A stretch of DNA of 59,264 nt from a virus, in the IMG/VR virus record IMGVR_UViG_3300036832_000931, positions 1 to 59,264 of that record, one strand, 5' to 3'. The translations under genes were made by a program, and so were the position numbers. Below, one piece after another: positions 4,356 through 58,274 of the stretch. Numbering within the stretch: the stretch's first letter is position 1; the number at the start of each line of letters is the position of its first letter. Below the pieces are notes generated by a model that saw only the letters and a list, made by a program, of their open reading frames with translations, did not search any database and was not told the origin of the DNA.

Positions 4356-4385
4356 GGAGAGTTAAGGGACAATGACTAGAAGGAT

Positions 4386-4445
4386 GAGTGGACCCGGGGC
4401 AAGCCCCGGGTTTAAATGGCGGGTCAGGTCACAAGCCCTGACAAC
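4386..4445 (+). terminator. Double hairpin cassette, copy 1
   Basis: Perfect 9-bp hairpin ACCCGGGGC-AA-GCCCCGGGT (4392-4411) followed by TTTAAAT, then a second hairpin GTCAGG (4423-4428)/CCTGAC (4437-4442). The whole cassette recurs at 4730-4787. The T run is short, so termination may be partial. Confidence 0.55.
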
Positions 4446-4722: not shown

Positions 4723-4729
4723 CCTGCAG

Positions 4730-4787
4730 AGTGGACCCGGGGCTCAACCCGGGTTTAATGCGCAGTCAGGTCACAAGCCCTGACCAA
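4730..4787 (+). terminator. Double hairpin cassette, copy 2
   Basis: ACCCGGG (4735-4741)/CCCGGGT (4748-4754), then GTCAGG (4765-4770)/CCTGAC (4779-4784). Homologous to 4386-4445 outside the genes as well as in the stems, with the first loop changed. Confidence 0.55.
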
Positions 4788-6885: not shown

Positions 6886-7056
6886 ATGACGCGGTTAACG
6901 ACATTAATCGAGATAGCGCTCGGCATCCTGGTCGTTGTGCTGGGTATTCAGGCACCAATATGGATGAACCTCGTCAGACTAAACGGGCAAGTTGCCCAGA
7001 TGGGGGTTCAAGTGTCGCAAATAAACAGCAAGATTGACCAGTTGAATCGTCAATAA
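6886..7056 (+). CDS. Single-pass membrane peptide (56 aa)
   Basis: A hydrophobic helix (IEIALGILVVVLGIQAPIWM) is followed by a heptad-like region (VAQMGVQVSQINSKIDQL). It starts 5 nt after the previous stop. The layout recurs in 7732, 7989, 8117, 9210 and 9418; such peptides include holins, spanin parts and superinfection factors, but none can be assigned. Confidence 0.5.
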   Translation: MTRLTTLIEIALGILVVVLGIQAPIWMNLVRLNGQVAQMGVQVSQINSKIDQLNRQ

Positions 7057-7095
7057 AGCGTGAAGAGCAAGTTTCCCATTAAGGAGGGAGGCAAG

Positions 7096-7257
7096 ATGTT
7101 CTACCTCAATATCAAGTCTATATCGCCACCGTTCTACCAGATGCGGTTGTATCGTACCTCGCGGCAACTGTATCAGGTGCAGTTCGAGAACGGTGCTGCA
7201 ATCACCGTCACTGATACCGGTCGCATCGTTGCGCTGGTATATGGGCAAAGCAAATGA
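7096..7257 (+). CDS. Small hypothetical protein (53 aa)
   Basis: ATG 7096 follows TTAAGGAGGGAGGCAAG. A short beta-rich peptide with no domain recognised. Its stop overlaps the DUF29 start (ATGA at 7254), suggesting coupled translation. Confidence 0.55.
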   Translation: MFYLNIKSISPPFYQMRLYRTSRQLYQVQFENGAAITVTDTGRIVALVYGQSK

Positions 7258-7712
7258 AGGACTATCACGCATGGTTGCTGGAACAGGCTGCGGCGCTGCG
7301 CCGCCGTGACATCGAAGCGCTCGACTGCGACGAGCTGGCTGAGGAGGTGGAGGGGATGGCAAGGACCGCGCGCCACCATATAAAAGTGGGACTAAGAACG
7401 ATCCTCGAACATCTAAGCAAGCTGGCGTACAGCAAGCCTACCCATCGCCTGTGGCGCGCAGCTATCAGCCGCTCCCGCGATACTATCAAGCTGCTGCTCG
7501 AAGAGTCACCAGGGCTCAGACAGTACCTCGATGAATATAGAGTCAAAGGCTATCGCCGCGCTCGTCGTCTGGCCGGTGAGTCCTTGGGCTGGGAACGCAA
7601 GCAATGGGAAGCCAACCTCCCAGCCGAGTGCCCGTGGACGCTCGAGCAGATCCTTGATGAGGATTTCTTCGCCGACGGTGACAATGACGGCGACTGGATC
7701 CCGATATTTTAG
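7254..7712 (+). CDS. DUF29 family protein, paralogue 1
   Basis: The full 152 aa fit DUF29: Y-H-A-W-L-L-E-Q-A near the start, LDCDELAEEVEGMARTARHH, then a helix with LSKLAYSKP and a C-terminal W-E-A-N-L-P-x-E-C-P-W-T-L. DUF29 proteins are common in cyanobacteria and purple bacteria and their function is unknown. A second member lies at 12854-13288, beyond the TnpB-like locus. Translationally coupled to the preceding 53-aa gene. Confidence 0.85.
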   Translation: MKDYHAWLLEQAAALRRRDIEALDCDELAEEVEGMARTARHHIKVGLRTILEHLSKLAYSKPTHRLWRAAISRSRDTIKLLLEESPGLRQYLDEYRVKGYRRARRLAGESLGWERKQWEANLPAECPWTLEQILDEDFFADGDNDGDWIPIF

Positions 7713-7731
7713 CCGATAAGGAGAACAGTAA

Positions 7732-7899
7732 TTGAGCGACGTCGCCACCAAAAACGATCTGCGCGAGCTCGAAGCGCGGCTCGAGAGCAGCCTCAAAAGC
7801 ACTATCATCAACACCATGATCGCGCTCACCGCCATTTATGGCGGAATTACCGCCGTCGCGATCACCGTATTGACGCTCGTATTCAAGAAAGTAATTTAA
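7732..7899 (+). CDS. Coiled-coil membrane peptide (55 aa)
   Basis: TTG 7732 follows GATAAGGAGAACAGTAA. The sequence VATKNDLRELEARLESSLK, then a hydrophobic helix, matches the small coiled-coil plus C-terminal membrane anchor layout (CCDC90/DUF1640-like) frequent in phages. Function unknown. Confidence 0.55.
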   Translation: MSDVATKNDLRELEARLESSLKSTIINTMIALTAIYGGITAVAITVLTLVFKKVI

Positions 7900-7988
7900 G
7901 TTTGCAAACCCCAACCGATTTGGATTATTTACTACAACAAGTTACTGGCATGGATAAGGACGTATTTTCTAATAAGGGAGAATGCCCG

Positions 7989-8129
7989 TTGGACATGGAT
8001 TCTTTCAACGCTGAAACGACGGTCATACTGTCCAAGATCTTCCGCCACTACCTTCGGTGGACCATCGGGTCAATGGTCGCAATCGCCAGCATTGCCTTGG
8101 TTATAGCGAAGATATTATGGAACCACTAA
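7989..8129 (+). CDS. Single-pass membrane peptide (46 aa)
   Basis: TTG 7989 is 8 nt after AAGGGAG (ATG 7995 is possible). About 25 polar residues then a membrane helix (WTIGSMVAIASIALVIAKIL). It overlaps the next gene by 13 nt. Confidence 0.45.
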   Translation: MDMDSFNAETTVILSKIFRHYLRWTIGSMVAIASIALVIAKILWNH

Positions 8130-8326
8130 AAATGACCGCGGCTGAACACGTCTGGGTTGAGCAGCAGCTGGCCGAGACCCGCAAGTTTATTGCGGAGCAA
8201 AACAAGCTGAACGCCGAACGGCAAAAGTCTGAGCGGGTATGGTGGTGGGTGCCGTTTATTCTGGTCGCTGGGAATATCGTGCTGAGTGCTCTGATCGGTG
8301 CCCTCGTGGGGCACTTCGTCAAATAG
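8117..8326 (+). CDS. Membrane protein with coiled coil (69 aa)
   Basis: ATG 8117 lies within the end of the previous gene. Residues 5-40 are helical and charged, then VWWWVPFILVAGNIVLSALI forms one membrane helix. Possible holin-type or membrane-sensor peptide; not decidable from sequence. Confidence 0.5.
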   Translation: MEPLKMTAAEHVWVEQQLAETRKFIAEQNKLNAERQKSERVWWWVPFILVAGNIVLSALIGALVGHFVK

Positions 8327-8394
8327 TTACGTCATGAAGAGAGTCAGCAGGTCTGATTCCTCATCGTCAGTGATTTTCAGGTAGGTCAGCATCG

Positions 8395-8541
8395 ATGCGG
8401 TCGGAGCTCTGGAGAGTGTTGTTAGCGTTTGTGCTCGGTGTAGCCGTGTTCTGCGGTGCGGTGTTCGTCGTCTCGCACTGGATACTGCCAGCACCGGCTC
8501 ATCAGGAGATCTACGTTCATATCTATCACGATAAATCGTGA
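8395..8541 (+). CDS. Membrane-anchored peptide (48 aa)
   Basis: A basic start, then one hydrophobic helix (LLAFVLGVAVFCGAVFVV) and a short polar tail. No Cys lipobox. It ends 18 nt before the DUF1874 gene, whose AGGAG site overlaps its stop. Confidence 0.45.
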   Translation: MRSELWRVLLAFVLGVAVFCGAVFVVSHWILPAPAHQEIYVHIYHDKS

Positions 8542-8559
8542 GGAGAGAAATACTATAAA

Positions 8560-9207
8560 ATGTTATTTGGATTTACTAAAAATGAACTCTGTCTGATCTG
8601 CGATTGCCTGCACGGTACGCTCAGCAATCCGTCACAGGATCGTGATGGTGGTCGCCGCTTTATCCTCGATCAGGTGACGGAATTTATCCGCACCGAGAAG
8701 GCAGATGAGAAGTGGGATGTCGCCAGGACCACCATACTCGAGAAGATCGAGACGCTCGACGGCTGGCACTCGCAGCTAATTCTGGGATGCGTCAAGCGTT
8801 TCTGGGAGCTCACCGGTCAGTCCAAGGACTATGATGCTGAGGAGCTGCTGCGTAAGGCAGGCTTCGATACTCCGACCGCCTACCTGATGAACTCGGCCGT
8901 CATTCCGTCGGGTACCTCGGGCACCTACCGTTACACTTGGTATGCGGAGACGGATGGTACGCTGGCGAGATTTATCAAGGACAAACATCCAGTCTCGCGG
9001 ATTGGCTATGCCGATGCCTGCGACATGGTCCAGGACATGAGCGGCGGTTATCGGCCGCGGCTCTCCCGTTCTGCTGCGCTCATCGAACCCGGGGACTGCG
9101 CGATGGTGATCAGACTGAAGTACCGCCTCGCTGATACCGGTCCCAAGAGAGTGCGGATGAAGAATAAAGAAGACTATGAGATCGGGCTGCTCGAGCGGCT
9201 GGATTAG
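8560..9207 (+). CDS. DUF1874 (AcrIII-1/Crn2 ring-nuclease family) protein with N-terminal extension
   Basis: ATG 8560 follows GAGGAGAGAAATACTATAAA. Residues about 107-215 match DUF1874: AYLMNSAVIPSG, then SRIGYADACDMVQ, LIEPGDCAMVIRLKYRL and YEIGLLERL. The family degrades cyclic tetra-adenylate, the second messenger of type III CRISPR defence; the viral form is the anti-CRISPR AcrIII-1. The family motif is IGH, with the His catalytic. Here it reads IGY (Tyr150), while the Arg of the RL motif (R189) is kept. So the protein may bind without cleaving, or cleave differently; this is inference. Residues 1-105 are a separate domain of unknown function; the family is usually only about 115 aa. Confidence 0.75.
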   Translation: MLFGFTKNELCLICDCLHGTLSNPSQDRDGGRRFILDQVTEFIRTEKADEKWDVARTTILEKIETLDGWHSQLILGCVKRFWELTGQSKDYDAEELLRKAGFDTPTAYLMNSAVIPSGTSGTYRYTWYAETDGTLARFIKDKHPVSRIGYADACDMVQDMSGGYRPRLSRSAALIEPGDCAMVIRLKYRLADTGPKRVRMKNKEDYEIGLLERLD

Positions 9208-9209
9208 TT

Positions 9210-9353
9210 ATGTCGCTTAGTGAGTACCTCGATGCGCGATTACGTCGAGCCGAGATCGAAATCATTATTGCCACCATCATGATTGTCGGGCTGGGCGATG
9301 CTGCGTTGTTCTGGGGGCTCTCGATACTTCTGCAACACAAGTTTCACTGCTAA
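9210..9353 (+). CDS. Single-pass membrane peptide (47 aa) ending in a repeat
   Basis: ATG 9210 starts 2 nt after the DUF1874 stop. One membrane helix (IIIATIMIVGLGDAALFWGL). The last four residues (KFHC) and the TAA come from the minus-oriented hairpin repeat at 9341-9365, one of few copies opposed to local transcription. Confidence 0.5.
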   Translation: MSLSEYLDARLRRAEIEIIIATIMIVGLGDAALFWGLSILLQHKFHC

Positions 9354-9365
9354 TGCGCAGGAACC
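9341..9365 (-). repeat. Hairpin repeat opposed to local genes
   Basis: CTGC/GCAG copy on the minus strand within the rightward gene cluster; it supplies the end of the gene at 9210-9353. Confidence 0.9.
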
Positions 9366-9417
9366 TTGTCATCTATTATCAAATGTTTAGCGTCTGCACA
9401 AAGGCGGTTAGAAGCTG

Positions 9418-9726
9418 ATGAGTGACAACCATCAAGTGGAATTTGTTACGCGCGAGGAATTGCGCGGTGAACTGAGAGAGCTGCGTGGGGAATTTCACAC
9501 GATGCGCAGCGAGGTGCGTGCCGACCTCAAGGACATGCGTGGCGAGTTGAGCAAAATGCATGATGGGCTGAACACCATGCACGGTGAATTGCGGACGCAG
9601 ACGCACTGGATGATGGGCATTCTCGTGACCATTGCCGTGGGCCTCGCCGGGATCGCGTATGGCACCTTACGACTGAGCGTAGGTCTGAAACCACCAGCAA
9701 CAACAAGCTCTAGTACCTTACGATGA
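9418..9726 (+). CDS. Coiled-coil membrane protein (102 aa)
   Basis: Residues 8-60 form heptad repeats (REELRGELRELRGEF and on), followed by one membrane helix (WMMGILVTIAVGLAGIAYG). This is the same coiled-coil plus anchor plan as the 55-aa peptide at 7732. The stop overlaps the next start (ATGA at 9723). Confidence 0.55.
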   Translation: MSDNHQVEFVTREELRGELRELRGEFHTMRSEVRADLKDMRGELSKMHDGLNTMHGELRTQTHWMMGILVTIAVGLAGIAYGTLRLSVGLKPPATTSSSTLR

Positions 9727-9986
9727 AATACTTACGCGCAAGCTCTGACGGCATGTGGATGTTGTTCTTCCCCGTCCTATCGCTCTTCTTCGTGATCTTC
9801 ATCCTCGTTATTACCGATGATGACGGCGTCTCGCGCAAACAGGAGGTTAAAGCGTGCGACATTGCCGTGCAGCAGCTGATGACCACTCATGATCTCGTCG
9901 AACTCCAGCGCGATGAATGGCTGATACATCACTTGCGTTGTTGGGTCACTCGGCGCGCAGTGCCGATACTGGTTCCTGCGAAATGA
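9723..9986 (+). CDS. Membrane protein (87 aa), stop in a repeat
   Basis: One N-terminal membrane helix (MLFFPVLSLFFVIFILVI), then a soluble region with two Cys. The C-terminus VPAK and the TGA are read from the hairpin repeat at 9971-9996. Last small gene before the TnpB-like gene, 39 nt away. Confidence 0.5.
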   Translation: MKYLRASSDGMWMLFFPVLSLFFVIFILVITDDDGVSRKQEVKACDIAVQQLMTTHDLVELQRDEWLIHHLRCWVTRRAVPILVPAK

Positions 9987-9996
9987 GCAGTGAAAC
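9971..9996 (+). repeat. Hairpin repeat upstream of the TnpB-like gene
   Basis: CTGC/GCAG copy, loop GAAATGA. It ends the preceding gene and lies 29 nt before the TnpB-like start, after which AATAAGGGA gives a ribosome site. Confidence 0.9.
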
Positions 9997-10025
9997 GAAT
10001 AAGCGGTTAATAAGGGAATACTCTA

Positions 10026-11444
10026 ATGAGAAAAAGGAAAAGAGACTGGCCGATGAGGGTGATCAAGATTCGTGCGTATCCGAGAGTGATCCCGGATAGC
10101 GTCTGGGCGATCGCGAAGGACCAGAGAAAGCTGTGGAATGATTTGACCAGTATGTGGAAGGCGACCGCTGATCTGGCGGCCAACCTGCCTGAGCAGAAAA
10201 AAGAAATGTGGAAACAGTTTGAGGACTGGGCGGCAGCGGCCGTTAAACTGTCCGGCCTCGACTGGGTTAATGGACCGGATATTTTAGATAGATTGCGTGC
10301 TACCACGCGCTCGCGCAAACAGGCTCCACGCTTTCATGGTGCGCTGCAAAGGGTGTCGATCGGGCACAGATATACCGGCGGCGGGAAGGCTCTGGAGGAG
10401 GTGATTGATCCAGGCGTTCAGGTCAGACGATTCGCCTTGGTCTCATCGAAGGACTGGATCGCCTCGCAGCGCTCACAGATCGGTCAGCATTCGCCCAAGC
10501 GCAAGCATTGGCGCGGCCGCTTCCAGGTCGGTGAAGAGACGATTGAGTACTCGTTGGCGCTTCATCGCGAGCTGCCTGAGCGCGCGATTTTGAAGCGTGT
10601 GGCATGGCTGGGTGAGCGCAGTGGCCCGACATGGTTTTGGTACTTGGCGCTCACGGTGGAAGAAGAGCCGGTACAAGGTTCCTGCGTGACGACGAGCAGT
10701 GAAACTACAAGCTCTGCCGCTATCGACCTGGGCTGGCGGTTATTTGCCGATGGGACCAAACAGGACCGGCTGCGGGTCGGCATGCTGGCTGATTCCGAGG
10801 CGCGCATGATCGAGCTGCGGTTGCCGCTGCGCCTGCGGCCTAACCGCGTTCAGGAACAGCGCGGGCTGGATACCATCGCACAGTGGCAGGCCGAGGCTTC
10901 CAAGCTCGACAAGAGCTCTGACGAGTACCGCATGCTCACCCGCGAGATGAGACAGTTACGCTTTCGCTTAATCCAAAGGCGCAGATGGTACTACCTCAAT
11001 CTCGCCAACTGGCTCTGTCAGCGATACAAGCGGATTGCGCTCGAGGATATGAGCATCAAGGATCTGCATCGTAAGCCGGATGATCCCGCCTTGCAGAATA
11101 GCGCGCAGTATCGCAATTACGCGGCGATTGGGGAATTCCGTGCCCTGCTCCTGCGCACCGCCACCAAATACGGCTGCGAGGTCATTCCCGTCGATTCGAT
11201 TGACTCGACCAGGACGTGCTGGGAATGCGGAGCCAAGGCCGAGGCGAGTGGGCACCTGACGCTTAAATGCGAGAACGGGCACGAATGGGATCAGGATAAA
11301 AACGCCGCTCGTAATCTGTTCTCGCAACTGGAGGGGACTTTCGGGCAGACACACAGTTTGCGAAAAATAACGACTACTGGTAAGTGGAAACGATTGGAGT
11401 TGCCGGAGTCTATTGGAGCGGTTGCAGTTGAGGTTCCTGCGTGA
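10026..11444 (+). CDS. TnpB/Cas12-like RuvC nuclease (472 aa)
   Basis: ATG 10026 follows TTAATAAGGGAATACTCTA. The C-terminal half is a RuvC domain with all three acidic motifs: AAIDLGW (D234), IALEDMS (E340) and WDQDKNAARN (D424). A zinc ribbon sits between the last two (C398, C401, C415, H419), as in TnpB and type V (Cas12) effectors. The N-terminal half (1-215) would be the RNA/DNA-recognition part. D-L-G-W-R in motif I recalls the compact Cas12m/V-U group, but the subtype is uncertain. No TnpA transposase or IS ends are nearby. Two repeats touch the gene: one in frame at 10677-10705, encoding residues 218-227 in the linker before RuvC-I, and one supplying its stop (VPA, TGA). Array 2 follows directly, as an omega-RNA follows tnpB. 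Likely RNA-guided nuclease; guide source unproven. Confidence 0.85.
   Translation: MRKRKRDWPMRVIKIRAYPRVIPDSVWAIAKDQRKLWNDLTSMWKATADLAANLPEQKKEMWKQFEDWAAAAVKLSGLDWVNGPDILDRLRATTRSRKQAPRFHGALQRVSIGHRYTGGGKALEEVIDPGVQVRRFALVSSKDWIASQRSQIGQHSPKRKHWRGRFQVGEETIEYSLALHRELPERAILKRVAWLGERSGPTWFWYLALTVEEEPVQGSCVTTSSETTSSAAIDLGWRLFADGTKQDRLRVGMLADSEARMIELRLPLRLRPNRVQEQRGLDTIAQWQAEASKLDKSSDEYRMLTREMRQLRFRLIQRRRWYYLNLANWLCQRYKRIALEDMSIKDLHRKPDDPALQNSAQYRNYAAIGEFRALLLRTATKYGCEVIPVDSIDSTRTCWECGAKAEASGHLTLKCENGHEWDQDKNAARNLFSQLEGTFGQTHSLRKITTTGKWKRLELPESIGAVAVEVPA
10677..10705 (+). repeat. Hairpin repeat inside the TnpB-like gene
   Basis: 29-nt CTGC/GCAG copy read in frame as GSCVTTSSET. It falls in the linker directly before RuvC motif I, where extra residues should be tolerated. 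Confidence 0.9.
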
Positions 11445-12003
11445 TGAGCAGTGAAACCGATAAGCAGAGCATCGCAGGCAACCGGTTCTCGCGGTTGCAG
11501 TGGAGGTTCCTGCGTGACGAGCAGTGAAACTTGGGTACGGCGACTTCGATGAAGTACAAATCAAAGGTTCCTGCGTTACCAGCAGTGAAACAGGCCATCA
11601 GGAGTTCCTCGATTTTCTCGCAGCCCTGAGTTGCAGTAGAGGTTCCTGCGTAATGAGCAGTGAAACTACTAATCCTGCTCAGTGCGGCCTGCGAATGAGC
11701 ATTGAGGTTCCCGCGTACGGGCGGTGAAACAATGAACAAACAGTTTCGATCAAGATTGTCATCACAGTTGGTGGTTCCTGCGTAATGAGCAGTGAAACAG
11801 CTGGAGATCACGCAGCTTGAGGTTCGTGCGTAAGGGCGCTGAAACTAGAAGCACAAGATGGTTCGCGCGTAAGGGCGCTGAAACTCATACACGGTCGAAT
11901 CGGTTCCCGCGTACTGGCGGTGAAACAGAGAGCCGTTTCAGGGTTCCCGCGTGTGGGCGGTGAAACAGGAGAAATGAGGTTCCTGCGGATACAGCAGTGA
12001 AAC
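11432..12003 (+). repeat. Array 2: 11 CRISPR-like hairpin repeats fused to the TnpB-like gene
   Basis: Units start at 11432, 11505, 11566, 11641, 11706, 11773, 11821, 11860, 11902, 11942 and 11978, all on the plus strand. A decayed half unit lies at 11484. Spacers are 47, 35, 49, 39, 42, 22, 14, 17, 15 and 11 nt, so they shorten along the array. Inner stems: mostly CTGC/GCAG, CCGC/GCGG at 11706, 11902 and 11942, GCGC/GCGC at 11860, and GTGC/GCGC (one G-U pair) at 11821. The first unit holds the TGA of the TnpB-like gene, so gene and array are probably one transcript. The array ends at the convergent stop of the gene at 12006-12197. Confidence 0.9.
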
Positions 12004-12853: not shown

Positions 12854-13288
12854 ATGAAAACGTACGAAACCGATTACTTCGCGTGGGCCAACCACCAAGT
12901 CGCGCTGCTGCGCAGCACCCAGCCCGAGTGGCTCGACTGGAAGAATCTGGCTGAGGAGGTGGAGGACTTGGGGCGCAGCGTGCGGTTTAGCGTGGAAAGT
13001 CACCTCGAGAACGTGCTGGTGCATCTGCTCAAGGCGCGCTACCAGCCCGCCCGGAGCAGCCGCAGCTGGGAGACCTCGGTGCTCAACGCCCGACTGCGCA
13101 TCGAGCGGCTGTTGCGCGAATCGCCTAGTTTGAAGGCGAGGCTGCCGGAGGCGCTAATGGAAGCCTACCGGCTGGCGCGAGGCGAGGCTGGTAGCCAAAT
13201 GGGCATGGACCGCCGACAGTGGGAGGCGACTCTCCCGCCAACTTGCCCGTGGAGGCTGGCGCAGGTGTTGGGGGATGAGCCGCTCTGA
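12854..13288 (+). CDS. DUF29 family protein, paralogue 2
   Basis: The 144 aa match DUF29: YFAWANHQVALLRSTQPEWLD, KNLAEEVEDLGRS, SHLENVLVHLLKARYQP, and WEATLPPTCPWRL at the end. Clearly related to 7254-7712 but diverged. ATG 12854 is preceded by AGTGAAAC, the 3' end of the hairpin repeat without the rest, and another 3' half unit (13286-13298) follows the stop. Function of DUF29 unknown. Confidence 0.85.
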   Translation: MKTYETDYFAWANHQVALLRSTQPEWLDWKNLAEEVEDLGRSVRFSVESHLENVLVHLLKARYQPARSSRSWETSVLNARLRIERLLRESPSLKARLPEALMEAYRLARGEAGSQMGMDRRQWEATLPPTCPWRLAQVLGDEPL

Positions 13289-15721: not shown

Positions 15722-15913
15722 TCAGCTCAGCCCGCCCGGTTTGACCCGACGCTCATCGATGAACCGCTCGAGCGCGGCGGGATCATAGCGCACGCGCTTG
15801 CCGAGCTTTATATACTCCGGCCCTTTTTTTTCGAGCCTCCATTTTTGAAGACACTGAACGGTCACGCGGAGGATCCCTGCCACTTCGCGCTCAGACATCA
15901 AGTCGGTCGTCAT
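15722..15913 (-). CDS. xis: AlpA-type excisionase / MerR-like HTH protein (63 aa)
   Basis: Start at ATG 15913, behind GGGGAGGGGCGAGTTA. The sequence LMSEREVAGILRVTVQCLQK followed by W-R, G-P-x-Y-I-K-L-G-K-R-V-R-Y is the HTH_17/AlpA winged-helix pattern of phage excisionases. It overlaps the end of the integrase gene by 23 nt, the usual int-xis arrangement. It probably bends DNA at the attachment site and steers the integrase to excision. Assignment rests on motif and position. Confidence 0.85.
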   Translation of the reverse strand: MTTDLMSEREVAGILRVTVQCLQKWRLEKKGPEYIKLGKRVRYDPAALERFIDERRVKPGGLS

Positions 15914-17099
15914 TAACTCGCCCCTCCCCAGCGTCTGGTATAGTTTCATCCACCGGTTCCTGCGTGGAAGCAGTGAAACGTTCTGGCTCATGCTCATCAC
16001 GCGCAGCGCTGTAGATGTATCGAGCGTAGTACTTGAACACGGTCTCAAGCCGATCGCCCATCAGCTCCGCGACCTGACCAGGGGTTAGCCCTTGCTCGAA
16101 ACAGTCCACGGCGAACGAATGCCTCATGACGTTCGGAGCTCGATACTTCAGCCCCGTCGCCTTGAACATCGGCCGCCAGTTGCGGTTGGTCCAGTTCTGC
16201 AGATTGAGACGTGCCCCTCGACGACCACGGAAGATCAGGCCCGTTTCATCGATCGGGATGTCTAACCGGCTGAGCACGGCCATGAGCCGTGCCGCGTTTC
16301 TCGGGGGCAGCTTTACAGTACGATGTGCGCGTTTCGTCTTGGTTCCTCGTATCGTAGCCCACTTCCCAGTGTCAGGAAGATCTTCCCGCAGAAGACCCAG
16401 CACCTCCGACGGTCGAGGCCCCAGGGCAAAGCCCAGTTCCACGATCGACCAGTCTTGGACGGTCTTGGCTACCGCCGACAGCTTCAACTGATCGGCCGGT
16501 GGAATGGGATCGATCTCCTCAGTCGCGCCTGAGGGCGGGTTCTCGATAAACTTCATCGGGTTTTTGCTGATCACCTCATCCGCTTCAAGCATCAAGAAGA
16601 TCTTCCGCAGCCGCTGAATGAACTGAGCTATCAGCCGATCCGGCTTGCCGGGGCGGTCTGACCGCCGCTCTACCCCATCGATCGCAGCCTGGATGTCCTT
16701 ACGCATAATCTCGCGCACGTCCATCTCCCCCAGCGCGGTGCCGTCGAGAAAGCGGCTGAACAAATACTCAACCCCCTTCGTCGTCTTTGCGCTTCTATAC
16801 TTCTGGGTATTCAGCCACTGCCGAGCTACGACGCGAAGAACCATAACGGGAGCAGCCGCCGCTTCCGCCTCTGCCACAGCCTTCAGCGCTTTGGCCGCCA
16901 TCGAATTGGGGAAGAATTCTTCAAGTGTGAACGTACCCTCCTTGATCGCATGGGTGACCCGCCGCTCAAGCGACGCGTACTGGCGACGATTCTCTTTGGT
17001 TGCACGCACGCCCTTGCCGACGCTGGGCCGATAAACCTTGCCCTGCCAGCGGAACTCCAGACACAGCCGGTTACGATTGCCTTTGATAAGTGATGCCAT
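15891..17099 (-). CDS. int: Tyrosine-type integrase (402 aa)
   Basis: Residues 1-50 form an arm-site binding domain (DUF3596-like), about 85-185 the core-binding SAM-like domain, and 205-365 the catalytic domain. Catalytic landmarks: GPRPSE (R229), K254/K256 on the beta hairpin, MRHSFA (R326, H327), and VFKYYARY with the nucleophile Y357 or Y358. Length is typical. The tail carries an antisense hairpin repeat (15955-15979), read as RFTASTQEP (374-382), which lengthens the C-terminus after the nucleophile helix. Catalyses site-specific insertion of the phage into the host chromosome. Confidence 0.93.
   Translation of the reverse strand: MASLIKGNRNRLCLEFRWQGKVYRPSVGKGVRATKENRRQYASLERRVTHAIKEGTFTLEEFFPNSMAAKALKAVAEAEAAAAPVMVLRVVARQWLNTQKYRSAKTTKGVEYLFSRFLDGTALGEMDVREIMRKDIQAAIDGVERRSDRPGKPDRLIAQFIQRLRKIFLMLEADEVISKNPMKFIENPPSGATEEIDPIPPADQLKLSAVAKTVQDWSIVELGFALGPRPSEVLGLLREDLPDTGKWATIRGTKTKRAHRTVKLPPRNAARLMAVLSRLDIPIDETGLIFRGRRGARLNLQNWTNRNWRPMFKATGLKYRAPNVMRHSFAVDCFEQGLTPGQVAELMGDRLETVFKYYARYIYSAARDEHEPERFTASTQEPVDETIPDAGEGRVNDDRLDV
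15955..15979 (+). repeat. Hairpin repeat antisense within the integrase gene
   Basis: CTGC/GCAG copy on the strand opposite to the integrase mRNA, in frame and without a stop in the integrase reading frame. Confidence 0.9.
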
Positions 17100-17720: not shown

Positions 17721-18008
17721 GTGTCTGTATACAGTCAACTTACGATCGTAGACGCCAAGCCGCGCATCATCCAGCAGTGCAGAGAGCAGGTCGTCAGGGT
17801 GATGGCGCAGCTGAAGTACTGCCATAACCTGCCGCTCATCATCAGAGACCCGTCGTTCCCCTTCGAGGATGTCCCGTGGCACGTAGAGGGACTTACCCCC
17901 GACCAGTTCGGGCGCATCGTGCCGCTCCTGATCGAAATACAACTCATCATGAAACGCGAAGACAAAGCGGAGGAAACCAATGGCCGACAATGCCCTGACG
18001 CTGCTTGA
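17721..18008 (+). CDS. Hypothetical protein upstream of RecT (95 aa)
   Basis: Start at GTG 17721, behind GGAGGGGAAA; the longer frame to 17607 includes the repeat and has no ribosome site. No domain recognised (IIQQCREQVVRVMAQLKYCH). It overlaps recT by 29 nt, so it is probably coexpressed and may serve recombination. Confidence 0.6.
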   Translation: MSVYSQLTIVDAKPRIIQQCREQVVRVMAQLKYCHNLPLIIRDPSFPFEDVPWHVEGLTPDQFGRIVPLLIEIQLIMKREDKAEETNGRQCPDAA

Positions 18009-18897
18009 GCAGCAGAAAAACGAGATCCTGCAGACGCTGCCGGCGTCGATATCGCCTGAGCGGTGGTGGCAGCTCGCCATTCAGATAATCAAAAACCCAA
18101 CGCTGAATCGCTGCACCCCGGTCTCTTTGGTCGAGAGCTTACGTCAGATCGCGGCGTGGGGCCTCGAGCTCGATAACGAGGAAGCCACCATAATTCCCTA
18201 CGGTCAGCAGGCTACGCCTACGGCCATGATGAAGGGCGTGGTACGCCGCGTCATCGAGTCAGGTGCCGCCGTCCACGTCTACGCTGAGATCATCTGCGAG
18301 GGTGAGGCGATCCGTATTTCTTCCGGTACCACCGGCCGGAATATCGAGCACGAGCTAAGTTTCGGTTCACGCGGAAAGATCCTCGGGGCTTACGCAGTTG
18401 CGATCCTGCCCGGTGGTCTGACCGACTTCGAGCTCTTTGGCCAGAACGACATCGAGGCGATCCAGAAAGCTGCACTGCGCGTCAGCGGGGGTAAACCCTC
18501 TCCTGCGTGGCAGAGCTTCCCCGGCGAGATGCTCAAGAAGTCGGTGCTGCGCCGTCTCTGTAAGCGCCTTCGCGGTACTCGCGATACGGACGAGGCGCAT
18601 CGCTTCGACACCATGATGGACGGAATGAAGCGCGTCGAGCCTGAGCCTACCGCACCGCTTACCCCTGATGAAATGCCCAAGCCGGCAGAGCCGGTAGCGG
18701 AGACACCCTCGGCAGCTTTGGTTGATGAGGCTCAGATCGCCGTAATTGACGACAACGCACAGTCGACCGGAATTCCACCCAAGAAGTACGCGAAGCTCAT
18801 GCAGGAATTCGGCATTGCCGAGGAGTGTCAACTGCCGTCGGACAAATTGCCGGCGTTCTTAAGGCGCATGCACGAGCTAGCCGAGGCCAGCAACTAA
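17980..18897 (+). CDS. recT: RecT-family single-strand annealing protein (305 aa)
   Basis: ATG 17980 follows GCGGAGGAAACCA. The body matches RecT: an early helix, then PVSLVESLRQIAAWGLELD, EATIIPYG, MKGVVRRVIESGA, and a core ending FPGEMLKKSVLRRLCKRL. RecT coats single-stranded DNA and anneals complementary strands. The C-terminal 90 residues are acidic and Pro-rich, then helical. Its partner nuclease is probably the protein at 19175-19765. Confidence 0.9.
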   Translation: MADNALTLLEQQKNEILQTLPASISPERWWQLAIQIIKNPTLNRCTPVSLVESLRQIAAWGLELDNEEATIIPYGQQATPTAMMKGVVRRVIESGAAVHVYAEIICEGEAIRISSGTTGRNIEHELSFGSRGKILGAYAVAILPGGLTDFELFGQNDIEAIQKAALRVSGGKPSPAWQSFPGEMLKKSVLRRLCKRLRGTRDTDEAHRFDTMMDGMKRVEPEPTAPLTPDEMPKPAEPVAETPSAALVDEAQIAVIDDNAQSTGIPPKKYAKLMQEFGIAEECQLPSDKLPAFLRRMHELAEASN

Positions 18898-42064: not shown

Positions 42065-44296
42065 TTAGACCTCGCCTCCTTGATCTTGCGCGCCCGGAGG
42101 CGGTTGCGGTGCGGGACCACCAAAGCCACCAAACGCACCCATACCCTTGGCTAAAGCATTAGTGATGTTCAGTTTATGTTGATGACCTTTGTGCATCAGG
42201 TCAGCGACATCTTTGCCGCGCTGATGAGCATTCTTGAGCCGCTCCTGTTCCATCTGATGCTGCTCATACTGACCCTTCTGCCCTTGTGATACCGCTTCGA
42301 GGGCGAACTTTGGTCCGGTCAGATTCGAGCGCATATCAATCTCACGAGCCTGCGACATCGCTTTCTTCGCTTGCGCGCTACGCAGCTGCACGTTGGCCTG
42401 CACCAGTTCCGGTGGATCCTGTTTGCCCCGTCCCTTCTGCGGCTGCCCCTTCTGCTGTTGCTGCATCTGCGCCGCCTGCTTCTGAATATCGGTGACCAGT
42501 TGGCTCGGGAAGGGGCTGTATTTCAGCAGCTGGAGGATCATCTGACCCATGCCGAACTTCATCAGGGCCTGCAGGATGCCGCTCTCCATCAGATCACGCC
42601 ACACTGCGGCTTTAAGGTTCGGGTTATGTTTCACGCTGTCGTCGAGCACCAGACTGTAGTGCCAGCGATCAGGGAGCGATTCCTTGAGTAACGGTGCTGA
42701 CTGACTGTTAAAGTCGCCACCGACTTGGATAATCTGACCCTGCGACCAATATTCGCGGATGAACTCGAGCGTCATCGTGGCTTTCTCTTTGTGATGACGC
42801 CGGAGATTGTCAAAGAACCAGCCGAGGACCACGAGACCAGCCTGCGTACGACCCTGGGCGGTCTGGGAGGGAGTCTGACCGGTAGCCTGACCGATCAGTT
42901 CCGCGTTGACGCCGCTCACCAATGTCATCGCTTTCTGAGCCTCGCTATAAAACATCGGGAGCTCAGGCGGCAGTTGGGTCGGAGTACGCGGCACTATGTC
43001 GTTCTTGATGTCGCTCTCGTCAGTGACCGGAATCCAGGCATCGGGTTGAGACCATGCATCCTGTGCGCGGCGGGGATCGTCAAATGCGCGAGGCTTGAAG
43101 AGTACGCCGCCCTTGGCATTGCTGATGTGGAAGGCGAGCGCACTGCTGATGGCTTTGTTCTGGGTCTTTTGCGGGTCGATCATGTTGCGGACGAGGCCGT
43201 ACCAGCGCTTCTTTTCCTCGTCCCACTGTCCGGTCATGCACAACAGCGAAAACCCACCGGGGAGATCGACCGGTTCCTCCAGTTCGATGCCGCGGCAGTA
43301 CATGCCCTGCCGAAAGACCGGCTGCATCTGCTTGACGGCGGGAGGTGGAGGCGTACCAAGCATCTTGGCGCGTTTCTTCAGACGGCCCCACTGCACCTCG
43401 TCGAACTGATTTTCCTCACCCGTCGTTTCATCGATGAGGCGGAACACAGGTTGCATGTCACGCCATTGGTACTGAACGACAGTCACGTCCTTTTTGGGAC
43501 CACCGCCCCCCACTTGCGGGTTAGCCTGCTGATTCGCTCGACTGTAGTAAGGCGTAACCAGCTCATATTTATCGGTGGCCCCAAAAGGCGTATCAGGGGT
43601 GGAGAGATCAACTGAAGCCAGTTTCTCTTCACCCCAAATCTGTTTGAACTTTTTACGGGAGATAGGTTTCTTGCGGGCGCACCACTCACGCCCCTCGAGA
43701 TTCTCCTTTTTCTGATTGTTGGGATCCCATCTCATTTCGTCCCACGGCAACCGCTCGTAGATGACCCGTCCGTTAATGTCGTCGGAATAATCCATGCGGA
43801 TTTCCGACCAGCCCATGCCGGTAACTACCGCATCACGCGCTACGCGGCTCAGTTCCTCACTGGCATTGCAGAGATCATCCGCAGTTGAGACAGCCTCGCT
43901 AGCGAGATCACCAGCAGCATCGAGTTGCGGTGGAGAATCCATCGCGCGGCTGACGAAGCGGACATCAGAGCGGTTGAGCCGCTCCAATCCGCTGACCGCA
44001 TCCACCGCCGGTTTGATCATATTGAAGACGATGGCGGGACGCTTGGTCCGTTCCATCGCCATGCGGTCAATGTCGTCCCACTGGTGGCCGGCGTAGAAAC
44101 GATTGTCTTCTTTGGCGGAACCAATGAAGGCTTGATAGGTGGATTCGGAACTGGCGAGATCGCGCAACACCTTCTGCGCGCGTTCCTCAGCGTCATCACT
44201 GTCATTGAGCCGGGTGATCTGTTCGCCAGGAGCCTGCGACCCCTGATCGGCACCGAGAAAGACGCGGGCATAAATGTCAGTTGACTCAGCCATCAC
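42065..44296 (-). CDS. Portal protein, P22 type (743 aa)
   Basis: N-terminal half matches P22-type portals: ASESTYQAFIGSAKEDNRFY-like start with NRFYAGHQWDD, KRPAIVFNMIKPAVDAVSG, then VVTGMGWSEIRMDY and a Gln-rich C-terminal helical barrel region (QKQAAQMQQQQKGQPQ). Length agrees with the family (about 700-750). Twelve copies form the DNA entry ring at one vertex; it works with terminase and the connector. Overlaps the next gene by 4 nt. Confidence 0.85.
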   Translation of the reverse strand: MMAESTDIYARVFLGADQGSQAPGEQITRLNDSDDAEERAQKVLRDLASSESTYQAFIGSAKEDNRFYAGHQWDDIDRMAMERTKRPAIVFNMIKPAVDAVSGLERLNRSDVRFVSRAMDSPPQLDAAGDLASEAVSTADDLCNASEELSRVARDAVVTGMGWSEIRMDYSDDINGRVIYERLPWDEMRWDPNNQKKENLEGREWCARKKPISRKKFKQIWGEEKLASVDLSTPDTPFGATDKYELVTPYYSRANQQANPQVGGGGPKKDVTVVQYQWRDMQPVFRLIDETTGEENQFDEVQWGRLKKRAKMLGTPPPPAVKQMQPVFRQGMYCRGIELEEPVDLPGGFSLLCMTGQWDEEKKRWYGLVRNMIDPQKTQNKAISSALAFHISNAKGGVLFKPRAFDDPRRAQDAWSQPDAWIPVTDESDIKNDIVPRTPTQLPPELPMFYSEAQKAMTLVSGVNAELIGQATGQTPSQTAQGRTQAGLVVLGWFFDNLRRHHKEKATMTLEFIREYWSQGQIIQVGGDFNSQSAPLLKESLPDRWHYSLVLDDSVKHNPNLKAAVWRDLMESGILQALMKFGMGQMILQLLKYSPFPSQLVTDIQKQAAQMQQQQKGQPQKGRGKQDPPELVQANVQLRSAQAKKAMSQAREIDMRSNLTGPKFALEAVSQGQKGQYEQHQMEQERLKNAHQRGKDVADLMHKGHQHKLNITNALAKGMGAFGGFGGPAPQPPPGAQDQGGEV

Positions 44297-56563: not shown

Positions 56564-56628
56564 GTTTCACTGCCACTACGCAGGAACCTTGCTTTGGATT
56601 ATAGTTTCACTGCCCAAACGCAGGAACC
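56564..56628 (-). repeat. Two hairpin repeats after the terminase gene
   Basis: 56604-56628 begins on the G of the terminase TAG; 56564-56588 follows after 15 nt. Both CTGC/GCAG. Confidence 0.92.
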
Positions 56629-58274
56629 TACCCAGCCATCCAACTACCACCAGAATCAGCACCTCTATTACCAAATGGACTACCACCATACTCCGCATCC
56701 CCGCGGTAGCGCCTCGGCCACACAATATTAAGGGCCGGATCGAACAGGCGGCTCAAAGCGTCCAGCATGTCTCGCTGTTTGGGATTGTACGGCCATAACA
56801 AAAACTCATCATTAATAAAGTGCTGCACCAAGTCGACTTCGCTGCCGTCTTTCAGCTTTTTCTTGATGCCGTCTTTAGGAAAGAGAATGCGCCGGTCACG
56901 GAAGGGAGGGATCAGCCAACCGATGCGGCCGTCTTTAGACATGCCGCCGGACAATTGTACGATCGTAAACATCTGGTTGAGTTCGCGCATACGGAAGTGG
57001 AAGTGCTCGATGTCGCACTGCATCCCGTATTTCTCGTAACCAACCTTCAGCGGATCCCAGCGGGTCACCGCCTGGAACACCGCCTCCCAGCGCTCCTCAA
57101 GATCCAGCTTGTCGCAGATCACGTCACAAATCCGAACGCGCTTGTCTGCTCCAAGCGCTACCACCCACAGGGCGAAGCGGCTGTTGCTGTCGGGATTATT
57201 GCCGGCCGGATCGACCAAGACGTATTTGTTCATGCCGGTGAGCGAGTCGTCCTTGGCGTCCCAGTAATCCAGCCACTCGTGGCTGAAGCCAACCTCGTGA
57301 GGATCCTTCGCCTGACTCGGGTCGAGCAGAATCTGCAGGGCGAAGACCTTGGGGGACAGGGCGGATTTGAAAAAGGAGAACTTCTCATCGCTCAGATAAG
57401 CGGGCTGATGATTCTCATCAAACGGTCCACGCAGCCTGAGCTTGCCCACTCTGCGCTTGATCAACTCGCTGGTCGTATCGCCAAACTCCTGAAAGGTCGC
57501 GATGTATCTGAAGATGGGCGGGTCGGAGGCGGTCAGCAGCAGCGAGTTATCAAACTGCTCGGTAGTGGTGGCGATCATCAGGGTCGAGGTCTGATCCCGC
57601 GCCACGACATCATCATATATAAGGCGGCGGTAGCGCTTGCCGACCGGCTGTCCATCGACCAGACCCCACGCCTCGATGGTGGCCTCTTTGGGATTACCCT
57701 TGCGCTTGACGGTGATGCCGTCATTCTCGCCCCAGCTTACCGAGGCGGTGCGGCACTCATGTTTGGGATCCTGCCACAAGACATCATCGAAGAGATCCTT
57801 GAGGAGCTGGTTGGTTTCGAATTCCCGCTTGATCAGGGTCAGGAAGTCCTTGGCCATCGGGCGGGTATGGCTGAAGAAACCGAACGTCACCTCGGGATCA
57901 TTGAGGATATCCTGAATGGTCAGCCCGAAGGTGATGATCTCGGATTTGTACGACTCGCGAGGCCACAGGTCGAGGTGATTATTGGGATTCTCTTGGACCT
58001 CAGTGCAGCGTTTAAAAGTCCAGCGAGTCTTTCGCTCGTCCGCCAGGAAATGCTTGCGGTTGAGAAGATAGACCAGCAGAAAGAAGAGATCGTGTTGTCC
58101 CAACCAGCGCAGATGATCACGGCGCATCGGGGCGGAACAGTTGCGGGTTTCCGTCCACCACCACTGGGCATTAGCCGGCGAGGTGGAGCGGTGCAGCGGT
58201 GGATGTTCGGCGCAGGCGTTGGTCTTGCGCAGTGCGCCGATTAAATCCTCAAAGCCGTTACCCCGTTTAGGCAT
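56628..58274 (-). CDS. terL: Terminase large subunit (548 aa)
   Basis: N-terminal ATPase: variant Walker A LWPRESYKS (103-111), a Walker B-like RLIYDD (217-222) and the following motif; C-terminal RNase H-like nuclease: VLVDPAGN (D355), YEKYG, and DMLDAL near the end. Length is typical. Packages DNA into the prohead by ATP-driven translocation and cuts it. Follows the presumed small subunit by 90 nt holding two hairpin repeats. Confidence 0.88.
   Translation of the reverse strand: MPKRGNGFEDLIGALRKTNACAEHPPLHRSTSPANAQWWWTETRNCSAPMRRDHLRWLGQHDLFFLLVYLLNRKHFLADERKTRWTFKRCTEVQENPNNHLDLWPRESYKSEIITFGLTIQDILNDPEVTFGFFSHTRPMAKDFLTLIKREFETNQLLKDLFDDVLWQDPKHECRTASVSWGENDGITVKRKGNPKEATIEAWGLVDGQPVGKRYRRLIYDDVVARDQTSTLMIATTTEQFDNSLLLTASDPPIFRYIATFQEFGDTTSELIKRRVGKLRLRGPFDENHQPAYLSDEKFSFFKSALSPKVFALQILLDPSQAKDPHEVGFSHEWLDYWDAKDDSLTGMNKYVLVDPAGNNPDSNSRFALWVVALGADKRVRICDVICDKLDLEERWEAVFQAVTRWDPLKVGYEKYGMQCDIEHFHFRMRELNQMFTIVQLSGGMSKDGRIGWLIPPFRDRRILFPKDGIKKKLKDGSEVDLVQHFINDEFLLWPYNPKQRDMLDALSRLFDPALNIVWPRRYRGDAEYGGSPFGNRGADSGGSWMAG

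Follow-up and report, generated by a model that had tools for sequence, protein, structure and literature searches.

The window analyzed here is an entire virus record of 59,264 bases, and the gene under study is an intact frame of 215 codons that begins with ATG and ends with TAG (Table 1). A purine-rich stretch, GAGGAGAG, lies 12 nt upstream of the frame. The GC content by codon position is 0.57/0.43/0.68 for the whole ORF, 0.57/0.39/0.64 for its N-terminal part, and 0.56/0.47/0.72 for its C-terminal part. This pattern resembles that of the portal and terminase genes of the same phage, so both halves of the ORF look like genuine coding sequence of the phage.

Table 1. Features of the window and of related loci; positions refer to the window unless a locus is named.
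Feature	Position	Strand	Remark
ORF, 215 aa; helical domain at the N terminus, followed by DUF1874-fold domain	8560..9207	+	Tyr replaces catalytic His
N-terminal domain, residues 1-105	8560..8874	+	Predicted all-helical (AF2, low confidence)
DUF1874 / STIV-B116-like domain, residues 106-215	8875..9204	+	hhalign, AF2, VIA-align
Asn111-Ser112 codons	8890..8895	+	Match gp29 Asn8 and Crn2 Ser452, by sequence alignment
Tyr150 codon (TAT)	9007-9009	+	At catalytic His47 of AcrIII-1 (SIRV1 gp29), IGH motif
Arg170 codon	9067..9069	+	gp29 Arg66 equivalent, kept
Arg189 codon	9124..9126	+	gp29 Arg85 equivalent (RL-motif Arg), kept
Asp192 codon	9133..9135	+	gp29 Glu88 equivalent, changed
Type-P5 twister ribozymes, two	4383-4440 and 4725-4782	+	Above Rfam cut-off, 285 bases apart
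Small-protein cluster, single hydrophobic helix each	6886-9986	+	At least 7, around the DUF1874 gene
DUF29 proteins (PF01724), two	7254-7712 and 12854-13288	+	E 6e-34 and 8.7e-41
TnpB-like gene, 472 aa	10026-11444		
Integrase	15891-17099		
RecT-like annealing protein	17980-18897		
Portal	42065-44296	minus	
Large terminase	56628-58274		
L070 DUF1874 match	1501-1779 of locus	minus	Bacillota genome, beside phage large terminase
L076 Tyr-clade gene	L076:7995-8342		IMG/VR virus contig
L077 Tyr-clade gene	L077:6886-7266		IMG/VR virus contig
L078 Tyr-clade gene	L078:4011-4364		IMG/VR virus contig

Several of the small membrane-type proteins that surround the gene have a charged or coiled-coil-like N terminus. 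Further downstream, positions 9957-12003 hold about a dozen degenerate, hairpin-like repeats of ~26 nt, GGTTCCTGCG...GCAGTGAAAC and GGTTCCCGCG...GGCGGTGAAAC, which are found before, within, and after the TnpB-like gene. Changes in the repeat stems look compensatory (CTGC/GCAG versus CCGC/GCGG), and the spacing is irregular, 35 to 75 nt among the repeats that follow the TnpB-like gene. The sequence-only reading had argued for type III evasion from "CRISPR-like elements" in this phage. We abandon that argument: the elements are the TnpB-like gene and these degenerate short repeats, which are uninformative on type III. The host was identified neither by the portal, with its one relative, nor by the TnpB-like protein, with none, and the integrase and DUF29 proteins gave only broad, distant matches. 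A pattern scan of IMG/VR found a single portal relative (L002, 55% identity), which indicates that this phage group is sparsely sampled. For the whole 215-residue protein, pattern scans found no relative in viral contigs or genomes, and tblastn found none in phage records; one tblastn match (H1) was rejected as a relative when it proved to be a portal-like ORF in the antisense frame.

The C-terminal part of the protein, residues ~106-215, had been assigned from the letters alone to DUF1874, the AcrIII-1/Crn2 family. It is indeed a remote but real DUF1874 domain, which aligns with the family from end to end. By Pfam's own rule the domain falls outside PF08960, since the full-length protein scores 17.1 bits and the domain alone 19.1 bits against a curated gathering score of 26 bits, and the PHROGs search gave a weak match of the protein to phrog_5063. 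Whether profiles place the domain outside DUF1874 was a check set beforehand. The Pfam score is sub-threshold, yet hhalign, purpose-built HMMs, and fold comparison concur in placing it inside. Aligned by hhalign with 14 viral DUF1874 proteins, residues 100-214 matched with a probability of 92.4. An HMM of 48 DUF1874 domains, from which the window was left out, scored the window domain at 21.1 bits (best of 5000 shuffles, 6.5 bits) and matched no other window frame of at least 60 codons. With an HMM of the four tyrosine-bearing relatives described below, the domain scored 80.0 bits (best shuffle, 8.9). A single-sequence search of 398 Pseudomonadota genomes returned one full-length domain match, to a Crn2-like gene, with an E value of 4.5e-5 per genome, or ~0.02 over all genomes searched; that gene is a bona fide PF08960 member at 84 bits.

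We then modeled the domain with AF2 using the aligned relatives. The pLDDT was mostly 82-95, falling to about 59 at residues 191-200. Foldseek matched the predicted fold to all solved DUF1874 members at a probability of 1.00, except 8y6z at 0.99. In VIA-align, the predicted fold reached a Z score of 14.7 to 8y7g (Crn2 H495A with cA4), with an rmsd of 2.2 over 110 residues, 14.7 to 2j6b (AFV3-109), and 14.0 to 6scf (AcrIII-1 H47A with cA4), and the scores dropped abruptly to 5.4 for unrelated chains. The similarity by profile and fold thus extends across the whole domain. Among the fold matches were also four Erwinia phage proteins (A0A1B2IEC3, A0A1B2IEJ3, A0A1B2IEG6, and J7KCD4), very divergent at 4-12% identity to the model; Erwinia phages with DUF1874-fold proteins are vB_EamM_Kwan (at least three such proteins) and phiEaH2.

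The added 105-residue N-terminal domain proposed earlier is present and predicted to be helical. AF2 places helices at residues 7-21, 31-44, 49-63, 69-85, and 93-99, with a pLDDT of about 50-66. Searched alone, this domain had no relative in phages, Pfam, or the fetched loci, and its matches in plasmids were at chance level. It is missing from all four tyrosine-bearing relatives and, by sequence comparison, appears peculiar to this phage among the material searched. We tried to name it by fold, and Z scores of up to 5.4 for one model and 6.4 for the other were too weak at this pLDDT. A suspected resemblance to a phage domain that occurs on its own could not be confirmed. L015, a DUF1874 protein of a Fusobacterium phage, has an N-terminal extension of similar size, which does not align with the one here.

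We next compared the window protein with the family residue by residue. Numbering follows SIRV1 gp29 (AcrIII-1), and the canonical sample consists of 48 domains, drawn from cellular genomes as well as from phages and archaeal viruses; the "Tyr clade" is the window protein together with its four relatives. Position 47, the catalytic histidine of the IGH motif, is His in 48/48 canonical domains and Tyr in all five members of the Tyr clade; Tyr150 of the window protein aligns exactly with the family histidine, as the sequence-only reading had it. That reading also noted that the Arg of the RL motif is retained, and R189 is there, but it omitted the adjacent losses of Glu88 and Gly89. Arg85 and Glu88 are residues that we take to be catalytic in AcrIII-1. 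Glu88 is present in 48/48 canonical domains and 0/5 Tyr-clade members, three of which, the window protein included, have Asp instead. Gly89 is likewise found in every canonical domain and is T193 in the window protein, so that its motif reads RL-A-D-T in place of RL-E-E-G (E88 to D192, G89 to T193). The window protein additionally lacks Thr50 (A153) and Asn65 (S169). Arg85 is invariant in the canonical domains (48/48) and plainly present in three Tyr-clade members, again including the window protein. In L077 and L078, an insertion displaces this Arg and breaks the R-x-x-E-G motif, so the count of Arg there depends on the alignment.

Other positions of the site are unchanged. Asn8 occurs in 5/5 Tyr-clade members and 47/48 domains of the His family, the Ser that follows it in 5/5 of the clade, and Arg66 in 48/48 and 5/5; Gly46 is retained throughout the clade (5/5). 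The clade has fixed residues of its own as well, Y125 and R185, and usually a W at positions 138 and 206. Set against the features of a ring nuclease, the window protein thus has Tyr150 for the catalytic His of IGH and keeps only the Arg (R189) of R-x-x-E-G (Arg85, Glu88, Gly89), while the cA4-site Asn8, Ser (Crn2 S452), and Arg66 appear by alignment as N111, S112, and R170. Judged by these features, it would not be an AcrIII-1/Crn2 ring nuclease, the catalytic His and Glu both being absent.

The tyrosine is a feature of a clade and not a one-off. Among the PF08960 genes of 398 Bacillota genomes, one (L070, 53 bits) contains ...SRIGY... and ...KYRVTDPG... and so shares both changes with the window protein. 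An alignment of these two sequences drew three more from IMG/VR (L076, L077, and L078), and later scans gave only these loci. The four relatives are proteins or frames of 115-126 aa, and all of them have IGY (4/4). They serve as bridging sequences: each passes PF08960, with scores of 45.7-53.9 bits against the cut-off of 26, and each groups with the window protein. In a maximum-likelihood tree of 53 domains, the window protein and its four relatives share one branch with support of 100/99, and they grouped together in 200/200 bootstrap trees. Of the five, the window protein has diverged furthest, and its exact position within the clade is uncertain because its end branch is long (1.95). Between the genes of L077 and L078, two related phages, there are 30 synonymous and 5 non-synonymous codon differences, which give a dN of 0.028 and a dS of 0.487 (dN/dS ~0.06). 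The gene of this clade is therefore under strong purifying selection and is no relic. The DUF1874 fold, then, includes a small clade, carried by phages, in which Tyr is fixed. As far as we found, this branch has not been remarked on before in the literature searched, to which the founding Nature 2020 AcrIII-1 paper did not belong.

Ring nucleases are among the closest known systems. AcrIII-1 (SIRV1 gp29; DUF1874, PF08960), a viral cA4 ring nuclease, has the same fold, domain length, and carriage by viruses or phages, and it has equivalents of Asn8, Gly46, Arg66, and Arg85 in common with the window protein. The two differ by His47 to Tyr150, Glu88 to Asp192, and Gly89 to Thr193 and by the extra 105-residue N-terminal domain, and their identity is 14% over the aligned structure. 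Cellular Crn2, including the Csx1-Crn2 fusion, also has this fold (8y7g is the best match, with its Z score of 14.7) and is likewise found fused to other domains. However, Crn2 retains its His and is associated with type III loci, whereas the partner domain in the window protein is not CARF or HEPN by any match found. AcrIII-2, a viral SAVED ring nuclease, and Crn4 are also phage-encoded and act on cyclic oligoadenylate (cOA), but they have other folds, and both have a catalytic His (PMC12751052; PMC12830947).

What might a DUF1874 protein without the catalytic His and Glu do? Our best reading is that it is probably a binding-competent pseudo-ring-nuclease, a sponge or a sensor. More specifically, we tentatively favor the idea that this phage-borne branch binds cOA, cuts it slowly or not at all, and so shields the messenger from type III effectors. 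Under this proposal, the catalytic His/Glu pair would have been given up while the fold and several ligand-site residues were retained, and the domain would be selected for holding cOA, with cA4 as the first candidate, rather than for cleaving it. The bound messenger would then be withheld from the type III CRISPR effectors of the host, and the N-terminal helical domain could contribute oligomerization or an output. We infer each of these elements, cOA binding, loss of catalysis, ligand identity, and the anti-type III role alike. The strategy would be like that of the sponges Tad1, Tad2, Acb2, and Acb4, which bind a signal without cutting it and have unrelated folds. Acb4 was considered as a relative and rejected, since it belongs to PF13876 and its monomer is dsRBD-like (PMC11722364).

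Published mutants bear on this proposal. In known enzymes, the His is described as a general acid that aids the leaving group (PMC7371418; PMC12830947), and cleavage of cA4 is abolished in Crn2 H495A (PMC7293037). Loss of the His alone leaves tight cA4 binding, because catalytically dead AcrIII-1 H47A binds cA4 with a KD of ~25 nM (PMC7213978) and Crn2 H495A binds it at ~20 nM (PMC7293037). Crn2 S452Y, by comparison, is severely defective in cA4 binding or has lost it (PMC7293037), and S452 corresponds by sequence to S112 of the window protein. We count the joint alteration of two catalytic positions, with Asn8, Ser, Gly46, and Arg66 unchanged, in favor of binding without cutting. Tyr is bulkier than the Ala of the binding mutants, however, and could clash with cA4. 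It also counts against binding that the window protein, by its sequence, is the most diverged of the clade and has lost Thr50, Asn65, and Gly89 as well. Stoichiometry is a further objection. A sponge acts one-to-one, and the estimated output per target RNA is about 1000 molecules of cA4 (PMC7213978), which disfavors pure sequestration and favors enzymes, unless the protein is abundant, the effector sites are few, or the domain is a sensor.

The sequence-only reading had offered a sponge, a changed enzyme, or a sensor. The present results narrow that list but do not choose among its members. Elsewhere, Tyr acts as a catalytic residue in enzymes that cleave RNA without a metal, RelE and the tRNA-splicing endonuclease among them. 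The protein could be a changed ring nuclease, slower or pH-shifted and metal-independent, in which Tyr150 donates the proton or acts as the base and D192 stands in for E88. We regard this as unlikely, though it is the first of the alternatives. R189 (R85) and R170 (R66) are kept, and the Glu-to-Asp change, conservative, is seen in three of the five members. Yet replacing the equivalent His in Crn2 (H495A) ended cA4 cleavage (PMC7293037), and the insertion in L077 and L078 interrupts the Arg/Glu motif, which is therefore no constant of the clade, contrary to what a new active site requires.

The same fold may instead hold another immune nucleotide, be it cA3 or cA6, a cyclic dinucleotide or trinucleotide of CBASS, or the 3' ends of linear RNA, and the Tyr would then belong to an altered specificity; we think this rather unlikely. 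A changed pocket would have just such fixed residues as the clade has of its own (Y125, R185, and usually W at 138 and 206), and the Crn2 domain is also able to trim RNA 3' ends (PMC7293037). However, Asn8, Ser, and Arg66, which have the closest link to cA4 binding, are retained. Quite unlikely, in our estimate, is reuse of the fold for a non-nucleotide job, for instance as a phage regulator that binds protein or DNA and in which the pocket residues are only structural. The long branch and the extra domain of the window protein would suit such a role, several canonical homologs are labeled "DNA binding protein" in their records, and the gene lies among small membrane proteins and not among known anti-CRISPR genes; full conservation of Arg66 and Asn8 across otherwise divergent clade sequences argues against it. 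A long shot is that the fused helical domain makes the protein a cOA-gated switch with which the phage reads the type III alarm instead of erasing it; the phage might then alter its own programme, perhaps through the neighboring small membrane proteins. Chance resemblance or a decaying, functionless ring nuclease would fit the sub-threshold Pfam score (17.1 versus 26 bits) but is very improbable and largely refuted, given the agreement of fold, clade, and independent HMMs, the shared change and strong purifying selection among the relatives, and an ORF that is intact and codon-typical.

If binding without cutting is indeed what the Tyr clade does, it would differ from the viral counters of type III signaling found in the literature searched: those are ring nucleases and cleave the messenger. 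With both catalytic residues lost, the clade would let nature answer whether binding is enough by itself, and it would bear on the fate of non-cutting ring nucleases and on a possible origin of sponges from nucleases. Its existence also makes it unsafe to label every DUF1874 phage gene AcrIII-1. The clade further touches the dispute over whether the native role of AcrIII-1 is that of an anti-CRISPR, a dispute we give as it is cited in PMC12751052 (Nature 2025, 640:E8) and count against the anti-type III role proposed here.

Extra segments are not confined to the window protein. Three other phage DUF1874 proteins (L032:1812-2414, L037:1894-2535, and L015:295-915) have additional N- or C-terminal segments with IGH intact, which indicates that domain additions recur in this family. 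In a Pseudomonadota genome, a canonical DUF1874 gene overlaps the end of a CARF-like gene (L050:752-1815) and is probably a cellular Crn2.
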